Origin: Mycolicibacterium cosmeticum
GTDB lineage: Bacteria > Actinomycetota > Actinomycetes > Mycobacteriales > Mycobacteriaceae
Length of the DNA stretch: 64,000 nucleotides
Assembly (NCBI RefSeq): GCF_000613185.1
Contig: NZ_CCBB010000001.1
Location: 2,790,001 to 2,854,000, forward strand
Direction: 5' to 3'
A model generated the notes under the pieces. It did no database searches. It was not told where the DNA came from and worked only from the letters and a program-made list of their open reading frames with translations. Made by a program: the position numbers and the translations under genes. Shown one piece after another: positions 50,575 through 61,735 of this stretch (the stretch's first letter is position 1; each line of letters opens with the position of its first letter).

Positions 50575-51053
50575 GTCGTTCCCCTTGTTCCCCGACGGCA
50601 TCGTCCGCATCGCGCGGCAATGTCACTTTGGTAACGGTGGGCTACAAAGGTCACGTTTTTAACACGGGATGGTCACCGTTCGAACCCTATGCGTTTCGCT
50701 GCACCGCGCTGTGGCGGTTTGGTGAGAGCATGGCCGGTTTACTAAACGCCCACTAAGAGATTGGGCGGTTACCTTAACGAAAATTGGGCGCGCGCAACCG
50801 AATCCGCGAAGCGGTCGAAGAGGTGGTTCCGGCGCACGCCTGGAGAAGAATGCTTGTGGAGCCTAGGAGATTCGATATCTCTAGGTGGCGCAAAGGTATC
50901 CGCGACGTACACGACGACTGCTAATTCGAGGCTCCGGTCGCTGTCGCGGACAAGTTATCTACAGCTGCTCCACGACGATGGCGGCCAGCATTTATTGTTG
51001 CGCCGACGAGCGCGTACCCCTGATATGTCGGGGTGCCGTGGCATCGTTGATCT
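50575..51053. other. Non-coding stretch with the left element junction
   Basis: No gene is seen. The part up to 50856 is chromosomal sequence that would normally follow tRNA-Ala; it holds the upstream region of the exported-protein gene. Positions 50857-50875 are the 3' end of tRNA-Ala. From 50876 on the sequence belongs to the integrated element and leads to its first gene at 51054. Confidence 0.6.
50857..50875 (-). tRNA. 3' fragment of split tRNA-Ala(UGC), left attachment site
   Basis: The minus strand reads TCGAATCTCCTAGGCTCCA: end of the T-loop, CTCCT of the T-stem, the 3' acceptor strand AGGCTCC and discriminator A. It completes exactly the 5' fragment at 61482-61538 (GGGGCCT pairs with AGGCTCC, AGGAG with CTCCT). 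It cannot function alone. The trinucleotide CGA at its inner edge is shared with the other junction. Confidence 0.9.
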
Positions 51054-51479
51054 ATGGAGGCTCCCAACCAGGTCATCTGCGAATGCTGCGAACTGAGCGT
51101 CCCCGAACGTCTGGCGTCGGCGGATCGTAACGCCCACGGTCTCGTCCGGGGCTGGATTTGCCGCCAGTGCAACGAGCACCGTGGCGACCCGTTGAAAACC
51201 GCTCGGGACCACGAGTACGAGGTCCGGGTCCGCTGGGGAGAAACCGCCGACGAGTTGAACAACGCGCTAGACCGCGCAGACGACTACCGCGAGAAGATGC
51301 TCGCAGCGTTCAGGTCACGTGACAATGTGCTGCGTCAGTTCGAGAAGCTGAGCCGCTACCATCGCGAGACTGGCCATGGCTGCGTCTGCGGCAAGCGACG
51401 CTGCGAAGTGCTCTCCATCGTGGACGCAGACTGGATCAACGATCACCTTCGGCGGCTCCACGAGCGCGAGGCAATGTGA
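51054..51479 (+). CDS. Zinc-binding protein resembling recombination endonuclease VII
   Basis: A 141-residue protein. The N-terminal part has C-x2-C (CECC) and, after HGLVRG, a second pair in WICRQCNEHRG, the arrangement of T4 endonuclease VII-like proteins (VRG-LLC-x2-CN). The Asp-His pair that is catalytic in that family is not conserved, so it may bind DNA without cutting. A third Cys group (CVCGKRRC) follows a helical middle. It is the first gene inside the element. Family placement is tentative. Confidence 0.45.
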   Translation: MEAPNQVICECCELSVPERLASADRNAHGLVRGWICRQCNEHRGDPLKTARDHEYEVRVRWGETADELNNALDRADDYREKMLAAFRSRDNVLRQFEKLSRYHRETGHGCVCGKRRCEVLSIVDADWINDHLRRLHEREAM

Positions 51480-51493
51480 GGACAGCCAGGTCG

Positions 51494-51826
51494 TCACGAC
51501 GTTGGAGCTGATACCTCGTTGACCGTTAGGCCTTGGTCGTGGGCCAGTTGCCAGCCGGCGGCCAGGTTGGCGGCTCGGTTGGCGGCGGTGACCTCGCCAA
51601 GGTACTTGCTGTGTTGTTTTTTGTTGACCTGCCACCGCAATTCGGCGTAGAGGCGGCGATTTCTAGCTTGTAGGACTATTCGGCCGAGAGCGCCTTCGTT
51701 GCCATGCATGACGCGGTGCTCACGGCCGCCGGCGGCGTGGTCTTGTTCGAGGGCCTGTGCCTGTTTGGTCGGATGGACCGGCGGCTTCCACTGGGTATCG
51801 CGGACATGGGTCGGGCTCCACCCCAT
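51494..51826 (-). CDS. Hypothetical protein of the element
   Basis: A 110-residue basic protein: an N-terminal part rich in His/Gln and a C-terminal half (LQARNRRLYAELRWQVNKKQHSKYLGEVTAANRAANLAAGW) of strand-strand-helix character with many Arg/Lys. This could bind nucleic acid. No family is recognised. It lies 17 bp downstream of the XRE-ImmA gene on the same strand and may be co-transcribed with it. Confidence 0.5.
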   Translation of the reverse strand: MGWSPTHVRDTQWKPPVHPTKQAQALEQDHAAGGREHRVMHGNEGALGRIVLQARNRRLYAELRWQVNKKQHSKYLGEVTAANRAANLAAGWQLAHDQGLTVNEVSAPTS

Positions 51827-51843
51827 GGCCCGCGCTCGATGCC

Positions 51844-52941
51844 TTAGACCATCGTGAGGTGTCGGGTGGCGGCTTGATCGCTTGCGGTGTGGAACAAGTC
51901 GGCGCGTTGTGCGCTTGTGAGTAGTGTGATGTCGTCGAGCTCGTTGGTGGTGTAGCCGGCAGCAGTGAGTTGGTTGAGCACGTCGTGGGCGAGCGTGGGT
52001 TCTTCTTGGGCGACGCCGGGCCGCGGTCCGTATATGCGGCCGGTCTCGTTGAGCAGCCGGAACATTGATCGATACTGGTAGTCGGAGAGGATGCCCCGTT
52101 CACGGGCGCGCATGACCAATGAGGACACGCTGACGCCCCAGGTGAGGCGGAGCTCGTCGAGTTCGTGGACGGTGCGAATGGAGACCCGGTCGAGGTCGAA
52201 GGCGATGTCGTCGATGGGGGCGAGGAATTCGGCTGCGAAGGCTGTGGCGCGGCGCTCGGTCTCTACCGGGCTGACCAAGGTCATCGCATCCATCACGAGG
52301 TGGCCCAGCTCGTGGGCGAGGGTCATTCGCATGCGGTCGGCAGGCAAGGCTGCGTTTACGTACACCAGGTGCGGATGGTGCTGGTTTGCCCGCAGGGTGA
52401 CGGCGTCGATCTCAGGGTCGCTGAAGTCCTCGGTGACCACGAAAACCCCTGCGGCTTCCAGTAATTCGACGATGGAACGGATCGGTCCAACTACCCGCCA
52501 CAGGCGTCGCAGAACCTGCGCGGCGGTGATTTCGCCGTGTTCGGCGGCGTAGTCGGTGGGGTCGAGTTCGGGGAGCGCGAGCACCGGTTCGATGTCCGCA
52601 CGCGCTCCGATCCGCCCGAGCCGCATCGCGATGAGGTTTGCGCGCGCCCAGACGCGGTCGCGTTTCCACTCCGCGGTGCTCGCATTGGCCCGGAAGTGGG
52701 TGCCTTCGGCCGGCGACCGGGTGAACGGAACGCATAACGCCTCCGGTGAGCATTGCATGACCCTCGCGTAGTCCAGCAGGGCTTTCCCTGCCAACGGCAG
52801 GGCGCCGGACTCGACCTTGCTCACGTGCGAGGGCGATACACCGACCTCATCGGCCAACCGCTTTTTCGACCATCCGCAGGCGAGTCTGGTCAGCTGCACC
52901 ATCACGTTGTTTGCCTCTGCATAGGGGCCCGGTGCCGTCAC
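51844..52941 (-). CDS. XRE regulator fused to ImmA/IrrE metallopeptidase
   Basis: A 365-residue protein. An XRE helix-turn-helix (about 15-70; GWSKKRLADEVGVSPSHVSKVESGALPL) is joined to an ImmA/IrrE peptidase domain with the zinc motif HELGH (210-214) and a following E-x3-FAAEFLAP segment. In ICEBs1 separate ImmR and ImmA proteins do this job: the repressor is cleaved by the peptidase to induce excision. Here one chain holds both. It is divergent from the recombinase operon, so control of that operon is plausible. Confidence 0.85.
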   Translation of the reverse strand: MTAPGPYAEANNVMVQLTRLACGWSKKRLADEVGVSPSHVSKVESGALPLAGKALLDYARVMQCSPEALCVPFTRSPAEGTHFRANASTAEWKRDRVWARANLIAMRLGRIGARADIEPVLALPELDPTDYAAEHGEITAAQVLRRLWRVVGPIRSIVELLEAAGVFVVTEDFSDPEIDAVTLRANQHHPHLVYVNAALPADRMRMTLAHELGHLVMDAMTLVSPVETERRATAFAAEFLAPIDDIAFDLDRVSIRTVHELDELRLTWGVSVSSLVMRARERGILSDYQYRSMFRLLNETGRIYGPRPGVAQEEPTLAHDVLNQLTAAGYTTNELDDITLLTSAQRADLFHTASDQAATRHLTMV

Positions 52942-53002
52942 AGATCAACTCCCCATCCGTCTCGGTGCTCGTCTCTGGACACTATCCCTCAGTCGGGCCG
53001 AA

Positions 53003-53046
53003 TCTGCGCAGAAACACGGTGTGATCTGCGATTTCCCAATTCTGCG
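53003..53046. promoter_or_regulatory. TCTGCG repeats, candidate operator
   Basis: In the gap between the XRE-ImmA gene (minus) and the recombinase operon (plus), TCTGCG occurs at 53003, 53025 and 53041. The first is part of a perfect palindrome TCTGCGCAGA. Repeats in such a position are often sites of the XRE regulator. This is by analogy only. Confidence 0.4.
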
Positions 53047-53209
53047 GCTTTCCGACCTGCGACAAGAGTGACTGGTGTGACTAAAGACGCACGGTACTCG
53101 CCTGCGTCATGTCTGTGCGAACACGGTGCTGATACGGCGTGGCGCACGGGAAAAACCTTACCACGGTCGGCACGATTCTAGGCAAGATTTTCAATCGGAA
53201 GGTGCAGTT

Positions 53210-53938
53210 GTGACGGCGCTCTTTGAGGATTGCGGCCCGCGGGACCGCGCGGTGTCGCGTAAAGAGGCAACTCGGTTGCTGCGGCAGGTCACGACCGGGG
53301 TAGGGGCGCTGCTCCTCGCCGCTGTCGATGACTGGAACGCCCTGTCCGAACGGCACGCAGCGCATCTGCGCACCGAACTGCACGGGCTGCTCCGCGGCTC
53401 ACATGTCGCCGCCGTCACCTCGGCATGCACTGCGGTGTGGCTCAGCACGCAGGGAATGCACCCGCCCGGCCACATCGTGTCGAAGCCGCATCGGTGGCCG
53501 ATGATCAGCAGCCACGGCAAGACCTACATGGCCATCCACCACAACGAGATGGAACCGACCAATGCCCGACGCACCGCGTTCTGCACCCAGGACTCCGAAA
53601 CCCTGCGCCTGCTCGACGCCGAAACCTCTGGTCTGATAGGCAATCCGACGCATTGCGAATTGACTTGGGACTACGACCCTTACACCGACTCGCACATCCG
53701 CATGATCTGGGTCAGCGCCCCCAGCGTCGACTGGGACAGATTCGAGATTCCGATGGCGCGAGTTCAGGCCCAGCTCGCGTCATGGCGCAAACGGAAGATG
53801 AAATGGTTACCGGGCGCACTCCCGACCGATGTCAACACGGTGGCGCCCTTGCCGGCCCGCGACGCAGACGACCGTCTCCGGCCGGGTATCGATGTCCAGC
53901 CGCCGCAGCGCTCGAAGGACGCCGAGGACCGGCAGTGA
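53210..53938 (+). CDS. Hypothetical protein, first gene of the recombinase operon
   Basis: A 242-residue protein without recognised domain. The centre (SKPHRWPMISSHGKTYMAIHHNEMEP, then CTQDSETLRLLDAETSGLIG) is mixed alpha/beta with several Trp and His; the C-terminus is charged and likely disordered. The GTG at 53210 has GGAAGG upstream. Its stop overlaps the tnpA-like GTG by 4 bp, so it is made together with the recombinases and may be an accessory factor. Confidence 0.6.
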   Translation: MTALFEDCGPRDRAVSRKEATRLLRQVTTGVGALLLAAVDDWNALSERHAAHLRTELHGLLRGSHVAAVTSACTAVWLSTQGMHPPGHIVSKPHRWPMISSHGKTYMAIHHNEMEPTNARRTAFCTQDSETLRLLDAETSGLIGNPTHCELTWDYDPYTDSHIRMIWVSAPSVDWDRFEIPMARVQAQLASWRKRKMKWLPGALPTDVNTVAPLPARDADDRLRPGIDVQPPQRSKDAEDRQ

Positions 53939-55047
53939 GGGCCGCCCCGGTGACCGTGCACGGCCGGCCGTCGTGGACGGTGGTGGACGACCTCGGACTG
54001 CCGATCGATGAGATCGAGCAGTTCCTGCACTGGCTGCGGGCGGTGGGCCGGTCACAGAACACCGTCCGGTCCTACGCACGGCACCTGAGCCTGTTCTACC
54101 GCTGGCTGTCGACGCGCGGAATCCCTTGGGATGAAGTGGCATTCGACGGATTGTGTGACTTTGTCGGTGTTCTTTCGGTGGGCTTGCCACCGCTGCAGAC
54201 CTGGCGTGGTAGCCGCTCAACGGCGACGGTGAAGGCGGTCAGCGCGGGTGTTCGCGAGTTCTACGAGTTCCACCGGGTCGAAGGCCGGGGACCGCTCGAG
54301 TTGGTGCTCACTCGCAACCCGTCGAGGCTGCCGCGCCGGGCGCAAAGCTTCCTGGCACACATCGAGCAGCGGCGCCCCAGTGAGGTCTCCCGCCTGGTGA
54401 GGCGAGGCAAGTCCGCTGCTGAGACAGTCCAGGTCATCGACTTCGAGGCCGACTTCGCCCGGCTCCTGCAGGCAGCGTCAACAGGCCGCGACCGGCTGCT
54501 CCTGTCTGCCCTGTATGACCTGGGGCTGCGGGTGGGGCAAGCGTTGGGGCTGCGCCACGGCGACCTTGATCCGATGCGCCGGCGCGTCCAGGTCTGCCGC
54601 CGGAAAGACAATCAGAACGGGGCGTTGTCGAAGCAGCGAGCGCAGTTCACGGTGGAGGCGCCACGTCGCTTCTTCGACCTGTACGCCGCGTACCTGCTCG
54701 GCGAGATCGCCGATGTGGATAGCGATTACGTGTTCGTGAACCTGTCCCGGAATCCGCGGGGTGGCCCGCTGTCGTACTCCAACGCCTACCAGCTCGTGGA
54801 GCGCATCGGAGCGTCCGCGGGCATTGACGACCTGCATCCCCACATGCTGCGGCACACCCACGCCACGGCCCTGGCGAGGGCGGGCTGGACCGCTGCCGAG
54901 ATCGCCGCCCGGCTCGGACAATCGCACGCCTCCAGCGCCGACGTGTACATCCATCTGGGTGGCGATGATCTCGCCGAAAGACTACGCCACACAGAGCATC
55001 TGGTGTGGCGGGCACCGCAGAACGGGGCCGGTGATGCCACGCCGTGA
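53935..55047 (+). CDS. Tyrosine recombinase, TnpA-like (Tn554 family)
   Basis: A 370-residue integrase. The N-terminal SAM-like domain (about 25-115; FLHWLRAVGRSQNTVRSYARHLSLFYRWL) is followed by the catalytic domain with Arg199, Lys224, His303-x2-Arg306 (HPHMLRH), His331 and nucleophile Tyr338 (VYIH). Its length is close to TnpA of Tn554 (361). It starts at GTG overlapping the previous stop; its own end overlaps the next gene by 14 bp. Confidence 0.9.
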   Translation: MRAAPVTVHGRPSWTVVDDLGLPIDEIEQFLHWLRAVGRSQNTVRSYARHLSLFYRWLSTRGIPWDEVAFDGLCDFVGVLSVGLPPLQTWRGSRSTATVKAVSAGVREFYEFHRVEGRGPLELVLTRNPSRLPRRAQSFLAHIEQRRPSEVSRLVRRGKSAAETVQVIDFEADFARLLQAASTGRDRLLLSALYDLGLRVGQALGLRHGDLDPMRRRVQVCRRKDNQNGALSKQRAQFTVEAPRRFFDLYAAYLLGEIADVDSDYVFVNLSRNPRGGPLSYSNAYQLVERIGASAGIDDLHPHMLRHTHATALARAGWTAAEIAARLGQSHASSADVYIHLGGDDLAERLRHTEHLVWRAPQNGAGDATP

Positions 55048-57043
55048 GTCCAGGAGCAGCTCCGCCCGCACCGTCCCGCAGCGGACCCTGCGGGTGCCCG
55101 ACGGCCCGTGGTGCCAGCCGACATGGCAGGTGGTTGATGTCTCCGGCGATCGCCGCCGGCAGGCCGTGGAGCCGTGCGCCGTCGAGGATTGCGATGGCCC
55201 GCGGTACTGGCTGGGCGGCCCCCGCAGCACTTCCACCGTCACGTCCGGGCTCTGCTACGCGCACTACTTCCAATGGTTTCGCGCCGGCCAGCCGGCCGAC
55301 TTCACCGCCTGGGCCGCAACCGAGTCGACACCGGTAGGACCGCCACGCGGCCGCCCGTCCAGCCAGATGGTCGACTTCCGGCGGCTCGCGCTCACCGCTG
55401 CCGACGAGGTCCGGTTCGTCGTGGCTACCAAGGTCGCCCGGGGCGACTGGACCTGCAACACCAGCCTGCGCCGCGTCCTGATGGTGCTGATCGATACAGC
55501 CGACGGCCGGATCACCGACTCGTTGACCGAACGACCCGTGCACGATTGGCTTCTGCTCTGCCGACAACATTGGCCACACGCCAGCTCCTTCGACACGCTG
55601 TGCGCACCGTACATCCGGAGCTTCTTTCGACTCCTCGACGGCGCAACCAACCCCGACCCGTGGACCGACGATCATTGGCACTGGCGAGATCAATTCGAGT
55701 TCGTCCTCGACGCCGCCCAATCAGGCTCGACGCACACCGCCGTCGACTGGTCGTCGGTGTCGGTGCCGTGGATGAGAGTAGCCGTTAAATCCCTTGCCCG
55801 ACAACAACTCACTACCGCCACCCTGTCCTGGGGAACCCTGACCCAGTGGGTGCGCGCCTCCCGCCAACTCGCCCAATTCCTCACCCTCGACGGCACAGTG
55901 CCCGATCCGCCCGCGGTAACCCGGACGGTGTTCCTCGACTACCTCGCGTGGACCCGCCGCACCGACACCACCGCTGACGCCCGCCTGGCGAACACGGGCG
56001 CATACCTGCTGGAGTCGCTGCACGACACCGGGCTCGTCTCCGACCTGGGCTCATCGATGTTCCTGCGCCGCGGCGAGAACGTTCACCGCAAGACCCGCAA
56101 TCCTCGGCCGTTCCCGGCGGATGTCATCGAGCGGGTCGACACCCTGATCGTCGACAACCCCGACACCGACCCCACCCTGCGGGCGATGATCGCCACCACC
56201 CGCTGGGCAGGATGCCGAATCTCCGAACTGGTCGCTCTCCCGCTCGACTGTCTGCATCACTCCGACGCAGGGCACTGGATCGAATACTGGATGACCAAAA
56301 CCAGCGCGTGGCGCCGGTTCCCCATCCCGGACACCTTGGCTAGCGTGATTCTGGCGCAGCAGGCCCGGGTGCGAGACACCTACGGACCCGATGCCATCCA
56401 CCTGTTTCCCGGGGCTCGATCAAGCGCCGCAGCCGGTCGCACCCAGCCCTGGTCCACCAGCGGCCTGCGGCACCGGCTTTCTGCCTTGTTCCGCGAACAC
56501 GGAATCACCTCATCGACGATCACCGGCGAGCTGATCTCCGGCGGTGACGTCCACCGTTTCCGGCACACCGTCGGGATGACCCTGCTCAACAACGGATGGA
56601 CCCAGCAGGAAGTCCGAGACTTCCTCGGCCATCAGAGCGACACCATGACCTCGACGTACGCCCGGATCACCGACGACACCCTCGCCCGCAAAGCGCGCGA
56701 ATTCTGGGAGAACAAACCCGAGAACAGCTCAGAAGGCGACGCCGGTGTCGAACGGCTACGCGCACGATTGACCGCGGCGCTGCCCAACGGATTCTGCACA
56801 CTGCCATCGACACAACGCTGCGAGTTCCGGCCCAATCCCTGCCTTGACTGCTCGTTTCACGACCCTGGCGGCCGCGTCTTCCTGGGTATCCACATTGCCC
56901 ACCGCGACCAGCTGCAGCGCCTCGCGGCCGACGCTGCCGAGCGGGGCGACACCGCAGCGGCCGAGCTGAACACGACGATGCTCGACAAAGTCACCAAGCT
57001 GATCGGCGAAATCGATCCGGATGCCCCGCTGGAGACCTCATGA
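55034..57043 (+). CDS. Tyrosine recombinase, TnpB-like (Tn554 family)
   Basis: A 669-residue large recombinase. An N-terminal Cys/His cluster (Cys48, Cys53, Cys74, His77) may bind zinc. A long helical middle leads to the catalytic domain with Arg395 (GCRISELV), Lys422, His507-x2-Arg510 (HRFRH), His533 and Tyr542 (STYARI). The tail has further Cys pairs (FCTLPSTQRC, CLDCSFH). Tn554 TnpB is of similar size (630). ATG at 55034 is used; GTG one codon earlier is possible. It overlaps tnpC by 4 bp. Confidence 0.9.
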   Translation: MPRRESRSSSARTVPQRTLRVPDGPWCQPTWQVVDVSGDRRRQAVEPCAVEDCDGPRYWLGGPRSTSTVTSGLCYAHYFQWFRAGQPADFTAWAATESTPVGPPRGRPSSQMVDFRRLALTAADEVRFVVATKVARGDWTCNTSLRRVLMVLIDTADGRITDSLTERPVHDWLLLCRQHWPHASSFDTLCAPYIRSFFRLLDGATNPDPWTDDHWHWRDQFEFVLDAAQSGSTHTAVDWSSVSVPWMRVAVKSLARQQLTTATLSWGTLTQWVRASRQLAQFLTLDGTVPDPPAVTRTVFLDYLAWTRRTDTTADARLANTGAYLLESLHDTGLVSDLGSSMFLRRGENVHRKTRNPRPFPADVIERVDTLIVDNPDTDPTLRAMIATTRWAGCRISELVALPLDCLHHSDAGHWIEYWMTKTSAWRRFPIPDTLASVILAQQARVRDTYGPDAIHLFPGARSSAAAGRTQPWSTSGLRHRLSALFREHGITSSTITGELISGGDVHRFRHTVGMTLLNNGWTQQEVRDFLGHQSDTMTSTYARITDDTLARKAREFWENKPENSSEGDAGVERLRARLTAALPNGFCTLPSTQRCEFRPNPCLDCSFHDPGGRVFLGIHIAHRDQLQRLAADAAERGDTAAAELNTTMLDKVTKLIGEIDPDAPLETS

Positions 57044-57459
57044 CCGCCGACGACCGGGACCGCCGCACCGCCCGTCTTGCCCAGGCCGCCGCGGCCCGCA
57101 CCACCGACGCGGCGGCCCGAGCCCGCAGGGCGATCACCAAACTGCACAACGCCGGGCAAACGATCACCTTCGTCTCGGTGGCCCGCGCCGCGGGGGTGTC
57201 GACCAGTTTTCTATATCAGCACCCCGCCCTGCGGCGCGAGATCGGCGAGCGGCGCAACCGTGCCGCCGACCAGCTCCCCACGCCCACAGCCGGTTCGGCG
57301 ACAGTTGAGTCGTTGCGCACCAAACTTGCTGTGGCCATGCAACGTAACCGTGACCTCACCGAGGAGATCGCTGTTCTGCGCACCGAGAACGAGGCACTGC
57401 GGAGTCGACTGCTCGAACAGCGCTGCGCGCAATCACGATCAGCAGAACCTTCATCGTGA
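57040..57459 (+). CDS. TnpC-like accessory protein (DUF6262)
   Basis: A 139-residue basic protein. A helical region with a small helix-turn-helix-like segment (ITFVSVARAAGVSTSFLYQHPALRREI) is followed by a C-terminal coiled coil (LRTKLAVAMQRNRDLTEEIAVLRTENEALRSRLLEQ). This is the make-up of TnpC-type proteins (DUF6262) that set orientation and efficiency of Tn554 transposition. The position directly behind the two recombinases fits. Confidence 0.85.
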   Translation: MTADDRDRRTARLAQAAAARTTDAAARARRAITKLHNAGQTITFVSVARAAGVSTSFLYQHPALRREIGERRNRAADQLPTPTAGSATVESLRTKLAVAMQRNRDLTEEIAVLRTENEALRSRLLEQRCAQSRSAEPSS

Positions 57460-57707
57460 CCAAACAGTCCATCGCCCGAAGAGGAGACGGCCCGGCGCCA
57501 GACCCGATAAACCCATACGCCCCTTACGAATTCGTCGGTCCCGGAATGACCCGACAGTTCTACCTCGACCAGCTCGCCGCGACCGGCTACACCGGCTGGT
57601 ACGACGAAAACGGTGTCCCCGCGCCCTGGCCAAACAACTTCTGCGACCCCGGCGGCGATTGGCAACCAAATCCGGGGGCGTTTACAGCCAGAGACCGCCC
57701 CTTCTAG
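57456..57707 (+). CDS. Small hypothetical protein, last gene of the recombinase operon
   Basis: An 83-residue protein rich in Pro, Gly, Tyr and Trp (PINPYAPYEFVGPGMTRQFY, GYTGWYDENGVPAPWP), without recognised family. The GTG start overlaps the tnpC stop by 4 bp, so it is translated with the recombinase genes; this is the main evidence that it is real. Confidence 0.55.
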   Translation: MTKQSIARRGDGPAPDPINPYAPYEFVGPGMTRQFYLDQLAATGYTGWYDENGVPAPWPNNFCDPGGDWQPNPGAFTARDRPF

Positions 57708-57833
57708 CCCCGTCGCCCGGACGACGATGGCGCGAAATTCGTGCCGCGAGCAGATGCTGGCTTGCGAGGTGGCGCTGGAACGACTCGCCAAGGGCATTCG
57801 AGAACCCCCAATAGGTCGTCCCTATCTCTCGGC

Positions 57834-58433
57834 TTATTCCCGTGCCGGTGGTTCGGGCCAGGCCTTGAGAGCTCGGTCGGCTACCTCGTGTAGCTCTTCT
57901 CTGGTGGCGCCGCTGCATGCCTGGATCGAAATACCTTGGCAAACGGCATGAATCCAGCGGGCGATGACTTGTGGGTCCACCCCGGGCAGCTCCCCTTCCT
58001 GCTGTGCCATGGCGAAGCGTTCGGTGAGCAGCTTCACTCCGGCGGCCCGGCGGTCAGCGAGATCGGCTTGAATCGGAGCCGCCTCCTCGCCCGCGGCGAG
58101 TGCTCCCTGCACCAGGAGGCACCCCCGGGGACTGGCAGGATCGGTGTAGGCATCCGCAGCGCCATGGGCCATCGCGTAGGCGATGCCCCAGGCGGTCGGC
58201 GCGGCCATGGCCGCGCCGACGAACCCGCCGGGCCCGGCCAGGTAGCGGTCCACCGCCTTGTAGAACAGTTGCTCCTTGGAGCCGAACTCGGCATACAGAC
58301 TCCGCCGGTTGACCCCCGTGGCTGATGTCAGGTCGCTGATCGACACCCCGTCATAGCCGTGCTCCCAGAACAGGGTCATCGCCTTGTCGAGAACGTCCTC
58401 AGGATTGAACTCGCGGGGCCGTCCCATCGCCAT
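57834..58433 (-). CDS. TetR family transcriptional regulator
   Basis: A 199-residue TetR regulator with MGRPREFNPEDVLDKAMTLFWEHGYDGVSISDLTSATGVNRRSLYAEFGSKEQLF as DNA-binding part and a sensor domain typical of the AcrR/YxaF-like group (RGCLLVQGALAAGEEA). The ATG at 58433 has GGAGG seven bases upstream. It is divergent from the SDR gene; a palindrome in the gap is its likely site. It controls the redox cassette carried by the element. Confidence 0.9.
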   Translation of the reverse strand: MAMGRPREFNPEDVLDKAMTLFWEHGYDGVSISDLTSATGVNRRSLYAEFGSKEQLFYKAVDRYLAGPGGFVGAAMAAPTAWGIAYAMAHGAADAYTDPASPRGCLLVQGALAAGEEAAPIQADLADRRAAGVKLLTERFAMAQQEGELPGVDPQVIARWIHAVCQGISIQACSGATREELHEVADRALKAWPEPPARE

Positions 58434-58509
58434 CCGATCACCTCCTGTGATCCGCGCCACAGTCTGGAATGTGGCGGTGCGTCAGCGGCTTTACCTGATC
58501 ATACTTAGT

Positions 58510-58521
58510 AACCGATCGGTT
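58510..58521. promoter_or_regulatory. Palindrome AACCGATCGGTT, TetR operator
   Basis: A perfect 12-bp palindrome in the gap between the divergent TetR and SDR genes, 35 bp before the SDR start. It is preceded by TACTTAGT, which may include a -10 element. Position and type fit TetR control of the four-gene cassette. Confidence 0.7.
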
Positions 58522-58555
58522 CGAAAGTCCCGATCCAGATGAAAGAGAGCGACCA

Positions 58556-59329
58556 ATGACCACCACTGACACCGCCACCACCAACACCGTGCGCCCGCTG
58601 GCCGGGCGGCGAGCGTTGGTCACCGGCGGATCCCGCGGGATCGGCGCGGCCACCGTAGCCCGCCTGGCCGCTGACGGCGCGGCTGTCGCGTTCACCTACC
58701 ACTCCTCACCCGAGCAGGCCGACAAACTCGTCGCCGAAGCCTCCGCGTCCGGTGCACAGGTCGTGGCGATCCGCGCCGACAGCGGCAACGTGGAGGCGAT
58801 CACCTCCGCGGTGGAGCAGACCGTGACCGCGCTCGGCGGGCTCGACATCCTGGTCAACAACGCCGGCGTGGCCCATGGTGCGCCGATCGAAGAGTTCCCG
58901 CTCGAGGAGTTCGATCGCCTGATCGCGGTCAACGTGCGCGGGGTGTTCGCCGCCGTCCGCGCCGCCGTGCCGCACCTGGGCTCCGGTGGGCGGATCATCA
59001 CCATCGGCAGCGTCAACGCCGACCGCGTCCCGGTGCCCGGCATCTCGATCTACTCCACCACCAAAGCGGCCGTCGCGGGCCTGACCCGCGGCCTGGCCCG
59101 CGAACTCGGCCCCCGCGGGATCACCGTCAACAACGTCCAGCCCGGTCCCACCGCCACCGACATGAACCCCGACGAAGGCGACTTCGCCGACCACATGCGC
59201 AGCCTCACCGCACTCGGACGTTACGGCCAACCCGCCGATATCGCCAGCGCCGTGGCCTATCTCGCGCTGCCCGAGGCCGGATTCGTCACCGGCGTCACCT
59301 GGAACATCGACGGCGGCTACACCCTCTAA
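58556..59329 (+). CDS. Short-chain dehydrogenase/reductase
   Basis: A 257-residue classical SDR: VTGGSRGIGAATVARL cofactor motif, LVNNAG, Ser in ITIGSVNAD, Tyr and Lys in IYSTTKAAVAGL and the C-terminal GVTWNIDGGYTL of FabG-like enzymes. It probably reduces a keto or quinone substrate with NAD(P)H. It is first of four genes in one direction (hydrolase, F420-reductase-like, SnoaL-like), all behind the TetR site. Confidence 0.9.
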   Translation: MTTTDTATTNTVRPLAGRRALVTGGSRGIGAATVARLAADGAAVAFTYHSSPEQADKLVAEASASGAQVVAIRADSGNVEAITSAVEQTVTALGGLDILVNNAGVAHGAPIEEFPLEEFDRLIAVNVRGVFAAVRAAVPHLGSGGRIITIGSVNADRVPVPGISIYSTTKAAVAGLTRGLARELGPRGITVNNVQPGPTATDMNPDEGDFADHMRSLTALGRYGQPADIASAVAYLALPEAGFVTGVTWNIDGGYTL

Positions 59330-59370
59330 CCGCGTCTTACCCGCCAGCCCCGAGAGGACACCGGCACATC

Positions 59371-60168
59371 ATGACCGACATCGTATTCATCCACGGCCTG
59401 TGGATCGCCCACAGCGCGTGGCAACCGTGGATCGACCACTTCGCCGAACACGGCCACCAGGGGGTCGCGCCCGCATGGCCGGGGGAAGCCGACACCGTCG
59501 CCGCAACCCGAGAAAACCCCGCGGCGCAGGCAGGATTCGGCATCGACGATCTCACCGAGCACTTCGCCGGAATCGTCAAGCAATTCGACACCCCACCAGT
59601 TGTCATCGGGCATTCCTTCGGCGGCCTGATCGCCCAGAAACTGCTGGGACAGAACCTGGTCGCCGCCGCGGTGGCCATCGACCCCGCCCCCATCAAAGGA
59701 GTCAGACCTCTCCCAGTCGCCCAGCTCCGCTCCGCATTCCCCGTGCTGGGCAACCCGCTCAACCGTGGCCGTGCCAAAGCCTTGAGTGTCAGCCAGTTCC
59801 GCTACGGCTTCGGAAACGCCCTCACCGCAGCCGAATCCGACCAACTGTGGGAAAAGTGGGCCATCCCCTCCCCGGGCAAGCCGCTGTTCGAGGCCGGACT
59901 GGCCAACTTCACCCCGAATTCGCCAGCAAAGGTCGACACCGCCAACGCCACCCGGGGTCCGCTGCTGATCACCGCCGGCACCGCCGACCACACCGTGCCC
60001 CACGTCAGCGCCAAGGCGGCCTTCAAGCAGTACGCGAAATCGACGGCTATCACCGAGTTTCACGAATTCGACGGCCGCGGGCACTCCCTGACCATCGACC
60101 ACGGCTGGCGCGACGTCGCCGACACCACCCTGGCCTGGCTGGCCTCCCACAACATCACCGGAAAGTAG
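59371..60168 (+). CDS. Alpha/beta hydrolase
   Basis: A 265-residue alpha/beta-fold hydrolase. The oxyanion loop is FIHGLW, the nucleophile elbow VIGHSFGGLIAQ, the acid lies in TAGTADHTVP and the His in FDGRGHSLTIDHGW. Related proteins are annotated as esterases or haloperoxidase-like enzymes. The substrate is unknown. It is 41 bp after the SDR gene. Confidence 0.88.
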   Translation: MTDIVFIHGLWIAHSAWQPWIDHFAEHGHQGVAPAWPGEADTVAATRENPAAQAGFGIDDLTEHFAGIVKQFDTPPVVIGHSFGGLIAQKLLGQNLVAAAVAIDPAPIKGVRPLPVAQLRSAFPVLGNPLNRGRAKALSVSQFRYGFGNALTAAESDQLWEKWAIPSPGKPLFEAGLANFTPNSPAKVDTANATRGPLLITAGTADHTVPHVSAKAAFKQYAKSTAITEFHEFDGRGHSLTIDHGWRDVADTTLAWLASHNITGK

Positions 60169-60177
60169 GACACCCAC

Positions 60178-60780
60178 ATGAAGATCGGATTCATCGGCGC
60201 CGGCAACATCGCCCAAGCCGTCGGAACGCAGCTGGCCGCCGTCGGCCACGACGTCACCATCAGCAACAGCCGCGGCGGCGACACCCTGGCCGCACTCGCC
60301 GCACCACTGAGCCTGACCGCCGGCACCGTCGCCCAGGCCGCCGACCACGAGGTGGTCTTCCTGGCCGTCCCATGGGGCAAAGTGCCCGCCGCACTGGACG
60401 CGGCGGGTGACCTCACCGACCGCATCCTGGTCGATACCACCAACCCGCTGGAAGCCCCCACCTTCACCAAAGCCGACCTCGGCGGGCTGACCTCCAGCGA
60501 AGTCATCGCCAACCTCGCCCCCACCGCGCAGGTGATCAAGGCGTTCAACCACATGACCCCGGAAAGCTATGCAGACGGACCTGTCGTCTCCGGCGGCCGA
60601 AAACTGCTCTTCCACTCCAGCGACCACCCCGACGCGCACACCGTCATCGCCGCACTCATCGAGTCGCTGGACTACACACCGATCAACCTCGGTACCCTCG
60701 CCGGCGGTGGAGCGCTCCACGAATTCCCCGGCGGCCCACTGCCCGCCAGAACCTTCATCGAATACATCCCGACCAGCTAG
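60178..60780 (+). CDS. NADPH-dependent F420 reductase-like protein
   Basis: A 200-residue protein of the F420H2:NADP oxidoreductase-like family. The Rossmann start is KIGFIGAGNIAQAVGTQL, with ISNSRGG after the second strand (NADP preference), then VFLAVPW and DTTNPLE. The middle KAFNHM corresponds to the family's conserved region. It may reduce F420 or another partner for the cassette. It starts 9 bp after the hydrolase stop. Confidence 0.85.
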   Translation: MKIGFIGAGNIAQAVGTQLAAVGHDVTISNSRGGDTLAALAAPLSLTAGTVAQAADHEVVFLAVPWGKVPAALDAAGDLTDRILVDTTNPLEAPTFTKADLGGLTSSEVIANLAPTAQVIKAFNHMTPESYADGPVVSGGRKLLFHSSDHPDAHTVIAALIESLDYTPINLGTLAGGGALHEFPGGPLPARTFIEYIPTS

Positions 60781-60792
60781 GACACAACAGAG

Positions 60793-61227
60793 ATGACCGA
60801 CAACCGTGAGGTCTTCAAAGACCTGGTCCGACGCAACACCGAGCAAGTCCAAGGCGGCGGCGACTTCACCGTGTTCGACGAACTGTTTGCCGACGGCTTC
60901 ACCGACCACACACCTCAACCCGGCATCACCCCCGACAAAGAAGGTGTCCGAGCCCTCTACACCGGATTACGCACAGCGTTCCCGGACCTGCACGCCGAAA
61001 TCCACTGGCAGACAGTCGACGACGATAAAGTCACCACCTTCAAGACCTACCGTGGCACCCACCACGGAGAATTCCTCGGCATCGCCCCCACCGGCCGACC
61101 CATCTCGTTTGACACCGTCGATGTCTTCCGAGTCCACAACGGCCAACTCACCGACCACTGGGGAGTAGCCAACCTCCTCGGAGTCCTCATCCAACTCGAC
61201 TCACTACCCGGCCAAACAACCCTCTGA
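60793..61227 (+). CDS. SnoaL-like ester cyclase/NTF2-fold protein
   Basis: A 144-residue NTF2-like protein of the SnoaL ester-cyclase group: VFDELFADGFTDHTPQPG, a GLRTAFPDLHAEIHWQTVDDDKV segment and GRPISFDTVDVFRVHNGQLTDHWGVAN. Members cyclise or hydrate small polyketide-like substrates or only bind them. It is last of the TetR-controlled cassette, 12 bp after the reductase gene. Confidence 0.88.
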   Translation: MTDNREVFKDLVRRNTEQVQGGGDFTVFDELFADGFTDHTPQPGITPDKEGVRALYTGLRTAFPDLHAEIHWQTVDDDKVTTFKTYRGTHHGEFLGIAPTGRPISFDTVDVFRVHNGQLTDHWGVANLLGVLIQLDSLPGQTTL

Positions 61228-61337
61228 AACGCCGCGGACGACAGTCGCAAGACCAATTGAACTTGGGTCACCCAGATACCGCAGCCAGGTAATCGATCTC
61301 GGCCACGATGCCAGCGGTCAGTGCCGACCCACAGAAG

Positions 61338-61408
61338 TGGAGCCACGGGGAATCGAACCCCGATCTGAGCCTTGCAAAGGCCCCGTTCTACCGTTGAACT
61401 ATGGCCCC
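61338..61408 (-). tRNA. Element-borne replacement tRNA-Ala(UGC)
   Basis: A complete 71-nt cloverleaf. Acceptor GGGGCCA pairs with TGGCTCC; the G3:U70 wobble that marks alanine tRNAs is present. D-arm GTTC-AACGGTA-GAAC, anticodon loop TTTGCAA (TGC), T-arm CGGGG-TTCGATT-CCCCG and discriminator A are all in place; CCA is not encoded. The sequence differs from the chromosomal copy in D-arm, anticodon stem and T-stem. It lies 73 bp inside the right end of the element, in the orientation of the broken gene. Confidence 0.93.
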
Positions 61409-61481
61409 GTCACGGACATGACCGCGACGGTATCATCGCTGGTCATCCGCACTTCCAACTCACTCTCCTACAGATAAAGAA

Positions 61482-61538
61482 CGAACTCCTGACATCTGCC
61501 TTGCAAAGGCAGCGCTCTACCAACTGAGCTAAGGCCCC
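61482..61538 (-). tRNA. 5' fragment of split tRNA-Ala(UGC), right attachment site
   Basis: The minus strand gives the first 57 nt of a normal mycobacterial tRNA-Ala(UGC): acceptor GGGGCCT, D-arm, anticodon arm CTGCC-TTTGCAA-GGCAG, variable loop and T-stem AGGAG with TTCG. Then it breaks off into TTCTTTATC. The missing 3' part lies at 50857-50875. It retains the whole anticodon arm but cannot be aminoacylated. Confidence 0.93.
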
Positions 61539-61646: not shown

Positions 61647-61661
61647 GGTGTAACCCTTCCG

Positions 61662-61735
61662 TGGGCCTAGGAGGACTCGAACCTCCGACCTCTTCGTTAT
61701 CAGCGAAGCGCTCTAACCGCCTGAGCTATAGGCCC
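61662..61735 (-). tRNA. tRNA-Ile(GAU)
   Basis: A complete tRNA: acceptor GGGCCTA pairs with TAGGCCC, D-arm with GGCGGTTA loop, anticodon loop CTGATAA (GAT), T-arm GGAGG-TTCGAGT-CCTCC, discriminator A. CCA is not encoded. It is the usual neighbour of tRNA-Ala downstream of gyrA in mycobacteria and probably shares a transcript with the DLW-39 gene and tRNA-Ala. Confidence 0.96.

Follow-up and report, generated by a model that had tools for sequence, protein, structure and literature searches.

A Tn554-related transposon breaks tRNA-Ala(UGC) in mycobacteria and likely takes over with a tRNA of its own

Can a transposon break the gene of a transfer RNA (tRNA) and stand in for it with a tRNA that it carries? 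The question is raised by a 64,000-nucleotide (nt) stretch of Mycolicibacterium cosmeticum DNA (contig NZ_CCBB010000001.1, positions 2,790,001 to 2,854,000; hereafter the window), in which a Tn554-like element splits the native tRNA-Ala(UGC) gene and brings a different tRNA-Ala(UGC). From comparison of sequences we are confident that a Tn554-related transposon breaks this gene and that its own complete tRNA-Ala(UGC) likely takes over. The original prediction for this DNA had treated the locus as a single case; the split and the replacement proved real, but the locus is one of a recurrent family, and phages already offer a precedent for the principle (PMC10865867).

The broken gene and the tRNA carried by the element

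Direct reading of the sequence confirms the two predicted halves of the native tRNA-Ala(UGC), nt 1-57 at 61482-61538 and the last 19 nt, TCGAATCTCCTAGGCTCCA, at 50857-50875, both on the minus strand. The break falls after nt 57, in the T-loop, and the 3' remainder lies 10.6 kb off, beyond an insert of 10,606 base pairs (bp). The sole bases common to both halves are TCG, and not the CGA at which they had been joined in the prediction. The broken gene, on the minus strand, has tRNA-Ile and a gyrA-like gene as neighbours, and the unbroken site, which the prediction had proposed to look for in relatives, was found as one contiguous match from tRNA-Ile through the whole tRNA-Ala in 12 of 41 relatives searched; of the remainder, G013 is split there and 27 gave no match at that E-value (genomes, contigs and loci are cited by our handles G, C and L). 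The features of the locus are as follows.

61661..61735, minus strand: tRNA-Ile(GAU), host gene upstream of the target (ARAGORN)
61482..61538, minus strand: 5' 57 nt of native tRNA-Ala(UGC), with the T-loop break (sequence; 100% match to nt 1-57 of the joined gene)
61478..61483, minus strand: right junction hexamer CGTTCT, read as carried from the previous site (junction comparison)
61409..61477, minus strand: right element end, starting TTATCT, leader of the replacement tRNA (end conserved in 15 copies, mean identity 74%)
61338..61408, minus strand: replacement tRNA-Ala(UGC) (ARAGORN, 61337-61408; Rfam tRNA, 68 bits)
50875..50985, minus strand: left element end, finishing AGATAT (left-end profile)
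50869..50874, minus strand: left junction hexamer CGAATC, which is the native T-loop (sequence)
50857..50875, minus strand: last 19 nt of native tRNA-Ala(UGC) (sequence)

Beyond nt 57 the sequence departs from a tRNA, and the element does not rebuild the native gene. Integration in tRNA genes usually restores the tRNA 3' end (PMC8371274), and an ordinary island of that kind could have been misread; yet the tRNA sequence is left beyond nt 57 both here and in the other native-locus copies that were read, and the junction sequence rules such an island out, leaving it a negligible probability. What the element holds instead is a complete, different tRNA-Ala with the UGC anticodon, predicted inside the right end and called there by ARAGORN, which lies ~70 nt inside the element end next to the native 5' half, on the native strand, and is 75% identical to the native tRNA-Ala(UGC). 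The native-locus copies that were read agree in the strand and position of their replacement tRNA.

The window's own genome (G000; 100% complete, 5 contigs) appears to depend on this copy. The Rfam tRNA model gave 47 hits, which are 46 intact tRNAs and the broken fragment; three alanine tRNAs are among them (CGC, GGC and a single UGC), and the UGC one is inside the element. A second intact chromosomal tRNA-Ala(UGC), named beforehand as a check, is absent among the 46 by Rfam model and anticodons. The claim of an only copy applies to G000, weaker native-like matches in other genomes being left out of it; 20 secondary native-like stretches from those genomes comprise 18 tRNA-Thr, one real tRNA-Ala(UGC) (G215 C2) and one without a tRNA (G202 C10). 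By the wobble rules GCA is read only by a UGC anticodon, and GCA codons are present in every one of seven window genes counted, including two that we take, from sequence and gene order, to be pknB- and gyrA-like; we therefore infer that tRNA-Ala(UGC) is essential.

Replacement tRNAs come in two types: a 71-nt type in most mycobacterial elements, and one of 73 nt, with 85% identity to the native gene, in Tsukamurella, a metagenome-assembled genome (MAG) labelled Gordonia and G229. Across 15 copies of the 71-nt type, mean identity is 98.2% for the tRNA, 74.1% for its leader and 25% for the DNA behind it. All 15 have G3-U70, the alanine identity pair, and three (two from one organism) show a paired change from C5-G68 to U5-A68.

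Decay around the tRNA bears on the same point. No transposase gene was detected beside the break in G002, G186, G191, G094 or G290 (40, 40, 15, 20 and 20 kb read, respectively), and the replacement tRNA is intact in all five; G094 and G290 still have the left element end with the native 3' half, and G186 has a distant TnpA relative elsewhere in its genome. The native 5' half is altered in G191 and G290 and almost lost in G044 and G094, again with the replacement intact. Conversely, where the native gene is intact, the replacement of G087 (beside the native gene) and of G088 (at another site) has substitutions and gaps, at 93-94% identity, and those of G259 and G263 are 97-99% identical. Such a pattern, small as the numbers are, would match selection on whichever tRNA-Ala(UGC) gene works, and it fits the prediction that the element makes its own loss risky; excision restoring the native gene is possible. 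If instead the replacement tRNA were an idle passenger and the split native gene still yielded a tRNA, for example by trans splicing, there would be a parallel in the split tRNA genes of some archaea; but the native 5' half is altered or almost lost in four genomes whose replacement is intact, and the replacement is much more conserved than its flanks, which makes the idea extremely unlikely. In G087 (C1, near 7,557,500) the altered replacement tRNA lies directly behind the intact native tRNA-Ala.

Spread of the family

Close TnpA relatives (73-100% identity) occur in 6 of 198 same-genus genomes, the window's own included; the 17 others of the 23 genomes with a TnpA match at E <= 1e-40 have relatives of 35-39% only, one of them (G083) with an additional 102-residue TnpA piece at 68%. 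In a named genome collection, close relatives account for 9 of 13 loci (Mycobacterium sp. shizuoka-1, Mycobacteroides chelonae, six Tsukamurella and the Gordonia-labelled MAG), the other four being distant clostridial loci, and at the level of the family 10 of 401 genomes match at E <= 1e-110. At the DNA level, a native half joined to the element end was found in 14 of 396 same-genus genomes, a pattern that, being built on the tRNA end, would miss most opposite-orientation insertions; its backward control gave zero matches among the same 396. The whole replacement tRNA is on the same contig in 12 of the 14, and in G120 and G176 the contig runs out within its first bases, the tRNA standing on a separate contig.

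The mycobacterial replacement tRNA is present in 21 of the 396 genomes. In 17 of these carriers the native gene is broken or eroded, which with G229 (Tsukamurella type) makes 18 of 396, and in four (G087, G088, G259 and G263) it is intact, the replacement standing at another site or beside the unbroken gene. Outside the genus, eight records show the split, seven from Tsukamurella and one labelled Gordonia; in L152 and L156 among them the contig stops where the replacement tRNA starts. T. sputi has an intact gene plus an element that ends in a tRNA-Ala 3' half; at L159:8531-8604 (G201:C77) lies a tRNA-Ala(UGC) that matches the Tsukamurella replacement type in its 3' part but not in its 5' part, which may mark a further insertion into the T. 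sputi replacement tRNA. One record labelled as T. tyrosinosolvens "plasmid 14" (NZ_LR134456.1) contains gyrA, gyrB, pknB and crgA and therefore looks chromosomal.

The prediction had asked for the same element in related genomes, and the same split with a replacement was thus found repeatedly. An error of assembly that joined unrelated contigs could be suspected, as several related assemblies (L141, L144, L152 and L156) end at these repeats. However, the window lies inside a 3.2 Mb contig, and the same structure stands in 1-4-contig assemblies (G002, G186, G229, G319 and G215); that separately assembled genomes share this split and its kind of replacement rules out such an error, whose probability is practically nil, and likewise argues against chance. 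Together with the junction sequence, this bears out the claim that the native gene is truly broken and a different copy carried.

How the family spread may be read from near-identical copies. The 9,992-bp element of G319 recurs at 99.95-99.98% identity in G215, G120 and G176, and G263 holds a G319-type element with an internal deletion; the flanks of G319 and G215 match only in blocks of 73-98%, and the right hexamers of these near-identical elements are CGAATC (both G319 and G176), CGACAC and CGCGCA. Two contigs of G176 match the window element at 99.98-100% identity; the chromosomal flank of G176 is at 81-88%, and the right hexamers are CGTTCT in the window and CGAATC in G176. Near-identical 10 kb elements in different species (the genome collection holds one genome per species) point to recent spread, and from the differing flanks and right hexamers most near-identical copies are separate insertions rather than one inherited event.

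Junctions, other sites and the proposed cycle

In Tn554-type elements, one 6-bp junction sequence comes from the donor. The present element has short, imperfect inverted ends, AGATAW and TTATCT. At the native locus, every left junction read whole, except in G543 (see below), has AGATAW and then the native T-loop hexamer (CGAATC or CGATTC); on the right, native ...GTT leads into a hexamer and then TTATCT, the hexamer being CG plus four varied bases (CA in one copy). Outside the native gene, where left ends were sought with the left-end profile, the left hexamers are CGGGCG, CGGTAC, CGGGGT, CGACTC (twice), CTAACG and CGAGCG. Of the 12 outside copies, 8 have CGAATC or CGATTC on the right, versus 4 of 23 native-locus copies (Fisher 0.007), and these two hexamers make up 56 of the 16,271 CG-starting hexamers of the window background (binomial ~1e-17 for 8 of 12), values to be taken with copies that are not fully independent. 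The 23 leave out the chromosomal copy of G290 (eight bases between GTT CG and TTATCT), the eroded junctions of G044 and G094, and the native-locus copy of G561, of which only the left end was seen. The 12 include the M. marinum plasmids (four records, two read) as one copy without the T-loop hexamer, with the end TATCT; the Candidatus M. methanotrophicum plasmid and G290 C2, which have the same right end, counted once; and G088, with the end CTATCT. The left hexamer would then be the present target and the right hexamer the previous site, from which it follows that many outside copies probably came from a tRNA T-loop.

Plasmid copies with an intact replacement tRNA occur in M. farcinogenes, M. 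avium (with a MOBF relaxase) and Ca. M. methanotrophicum. M. marinum pRAW and pMMRN hold a ruined remnant, with the anticodon changed and the 3' end lost; this remnant of the element's tRNA end (L189 and L191) stands on plasmids with a MOBF relaxase and type VII secretion genes. One copy of G561 lies in the T-loop of an apparent tRNA-Ala; the surrounding stretch (G561:C3:2680000-2719999; L209/L210) contains 35 tRNA genes besides the replacement tRNA and this split one. In G013 one copy is apparently inside the tnpB of another, next to an assembly N. A nested insertion into the replacement tRNA of G013 C137 was considered and rejected, the 50-nt fragment stopping at an assembly N.

From these comparisons we propose the following steps:

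(i) The recombinases likely insert the element into the T-loop of the host tRNA-Ala(UGC). TnpA and TnpB would recombine the ends (TTATCT... and ...AGATAW) with a target of CG plus four free bases, leaving the current target as the left hexamer and bringing the right hexamer from an earlier site.

(ii) The host promoter would transcribe the replacement tRNA, since this shares a strand with the broken 5' half and directly follows it.

(iii) Selection would keep the element's tRNA because the native gene is dead, and the element would become hard to lose. The transposase genes could then decay, with the tRNA remaining as a host gene.

(iv) On plasmids and at other sites, the spare tRNA may let the element enter the tRNA gene of a new host without killing the cell.

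Taken further, and as a reading that we favour with some reserve, this would be a transposon lineage specialised in breaking and replacing one essential tRNA gene, shuttling between plasmids and the tRNA-Ala(UGC) T-loop with each previous address written into a junction hexamer. Its carried tRNA would differ from the target and hence not be hit again, and the alanine tRNA of several mycobacterial species would have been permanently swapped and left domesticated after the death of the transposon.

Besides the orientation bias of the DNA pattern, several points weigh against steps (i) to (iv). The replacement is not the sole copy in G215, which holds a further tRNA-Ala(UGC) in a tRNA array. The altered replacements of G087 and G088 are still called tRNAs by ARAGORN, decay being a reading of their substitutions and gaps. 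The T-loop hexamer is absent from 4 of the 12 outside copies, and the G543 contig with the native 5' half has the left end followed by CGCTGC; there the tRNA 3' half is on a different contig, perhaps through an exchange between two copies. Lastly, CGAATC is the T-loop of many other tRNAs, and the previous site need not be a tRNA-Ala; the 71-nt replacement tRNA, too, has CGATTC as its own T-loop. Two observations stand beside these: the extra copy of G215 (G215:C2:59200-59640, on a 278 kb contig) belongs to a second tRNA cluster (Ser, Ala(UGC), Asp and Ile), and the element of G543:C2 is interrupted by a second, distant TnpA/TnpB/M78 set.

The element's genes and known systems

Between its ends, the window element contains the following genes, five of them cargo.

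60793..61227, plus strand: cargo, SnoaL-like protein (Pfam PF07366)
60178..60780, plus strand: cargo, NADPH-F420-reductase-like protein, weak match (NCBIfam, below cut-off)
59371..60168, plus strand: cargo, alpha/beta hydrolase (Pfam PF12697)
58556..59329, plus strand: cargo, short-chain dehydrogenase/reductase (SDR) oxidoreductase (NCBIfam SDR models, below cut-offs)
57834..58460, minus strand: cargo, TetR-type regulator (Pfam PF00440)
57040..57459, plus strand: TnpC-position gene, 139 amino acids (aa), DUF6262 (Pfam PF19776)
55034..57043, plus strand: TnpB, long tyrosine recombinase, 669 aa (Pfam PF00589; relatives found)
53935..55047, plus strand: TnpA, tyrosine recombinase, 370 aa (Pfam PF00589, PF02899)
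53210..53938, plus strand: conserved open reading frame (ORF) directly before tnpA, without a Pfam match (adjoins tnpA in most related elements read)
51844..52941, minus strand: helix-turn-helix and M78/IrrE-like regulator (Pfam PF06114, PF01381; conserved in related elements)
51494..51826, minus strand: small conserved ORF of the element (tblastn in related elements)
51054..51479, plus strand: endonuclease VII-like ORF, weak (Pfam PF02945, below cut-off)

The Tn554-like operon predicted within the 10.6 kb is thus there: TnpA and TnpB are tyrosine recombinases by Pfam, and a gene stands at the TnpC place, which from its position we take to be TnpC-related. The tnp block points toward the tRNA in the window, M. 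chelonae, M. farcinogenes and G173 copies and away from it in G140, G319, G215 and Tsukamurella, with the tRNA end unchanged. The G319 cargo includes a 652-aa protein that, by its motifs, presumably resembles a P-type metal ATPase. Over residues 1-351, TnpA is 31% identical to a 361-aa recombinase of S. epidermidis that lies beside cfr and behind a JAB-domain gene, which we take to be radC of a Tn558-like element.

That the element is a prophage remnant from tRNA-dependent lysogeny, its virion genes lost and its tRNA that of the phage, deserves consideration, the principle being proven for mycobacteriophages (PMC10865867). No phage structural gene was found among the ORFs examined in the window element, however, nor were any seen in the 10 kb elements; the recombination genes form a conserved operon of TnpA, TnpB and the TnpC-position gene, which the 10 kb elements of G319 and G215 and plasmids have as well; and the right-end query against 50,697 phage records gave one match, at 77%, to an ordinary tRNA-Ala. 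We hold a prophage origin to be very unlikely and keep to a Tn554-related transposon.

Among transposons, a close description is the actinobacterial Tn554-related class defined by Van Houdt 2012 (PMC3414803), with a recombinase of ~350 aa, an abnormally long one (611-828 aa) and a TnpC-type gene in one direction; the window element has 370 and 669 aa, both with a Phage_integrase domain, and a third gene of 139 aa (DUF6262) in the tnp direction. It differs in its tRNA, neither a tRNA target nor a carried tRNA being described in the part of that paper available. Tn554, Tn558 and Tn6188 of Firmicutes (PMC3788773) have a tnpABC of similar size (361, 637 and 121 aa in Tn6188), disrupt a gene at a fixed site and have 6-bp junction sequences, and Tn6188 is stated to be without terminal inverted repeats; their target is radC, non-essential in the species named, and a tRNA is not mentioned in the part available. 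In our family the 6-bp junctions likewise come without target duplication, the hexamers differing at both window junctions (CGAATC and CGTTCT) and in most copies. The copies sit in the tRNA-Ala(UGC) T-loop or at other sites rather than in radC (att554), and we therefore name the element Tn554-related, not Tn554. Among the matches listed in the open-access literature there was no published transposon that replaces the tRNA gene it breaks.

Phages offer parallels as well. In the Rhizobium phage vTRX32-1 group (PMC8631192) a tRNA-Leu gene is interrupted, and the phage brings a complete tRNA-Leu without the 12-bp target motif; unlike our element, these are phages, with another tRNA and one common attachment motif. 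Some actinobacteriophages break a tRNA and supply a cognate one, which has been described as "tRNA-dependent lysogeny" (Guerrero-Bustamante & Hatfull 2024, mBio, PMC10865867); in Table 2 of that paper the broken tRNAs are Lys, Ile2 and Leu, and anticodon-loop cores are common for mycobacteriophages. Our element shares the short core (here TCG), the host tRNA that is not reconstructed and the tRNA within the element (here tRNA-Ala(UGC)). The phages have one integrase and phage genomes, whereas here there are a TnpABC-type transposon, a tRNA-Ala(UGC) T-loop target, varying hexamers, copies on plasmids and decayed lone-tRNA remnants. For the phages the need for the carried tRNA was tested, and here it is deduced from comparison; the element, without a phage structural gene among the ORFs examined, works like tRNA-dependent lysogeny and is not a member of it.

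The family suggests that a translation gene can pass to mobile DNA repeatedly in wild bacteria, and its states (native gene broken, native gene intact, element decayed, plasmid copy) are natural experiments for gauging selection on one tRNA. Whether a mobile element becomes indispensable through its tRNA is now directly testable in M. smegmatis. A review states that a tRNA gene entered by integration is made whole again (PMC8371274); to this the element family is an exception outside phages.

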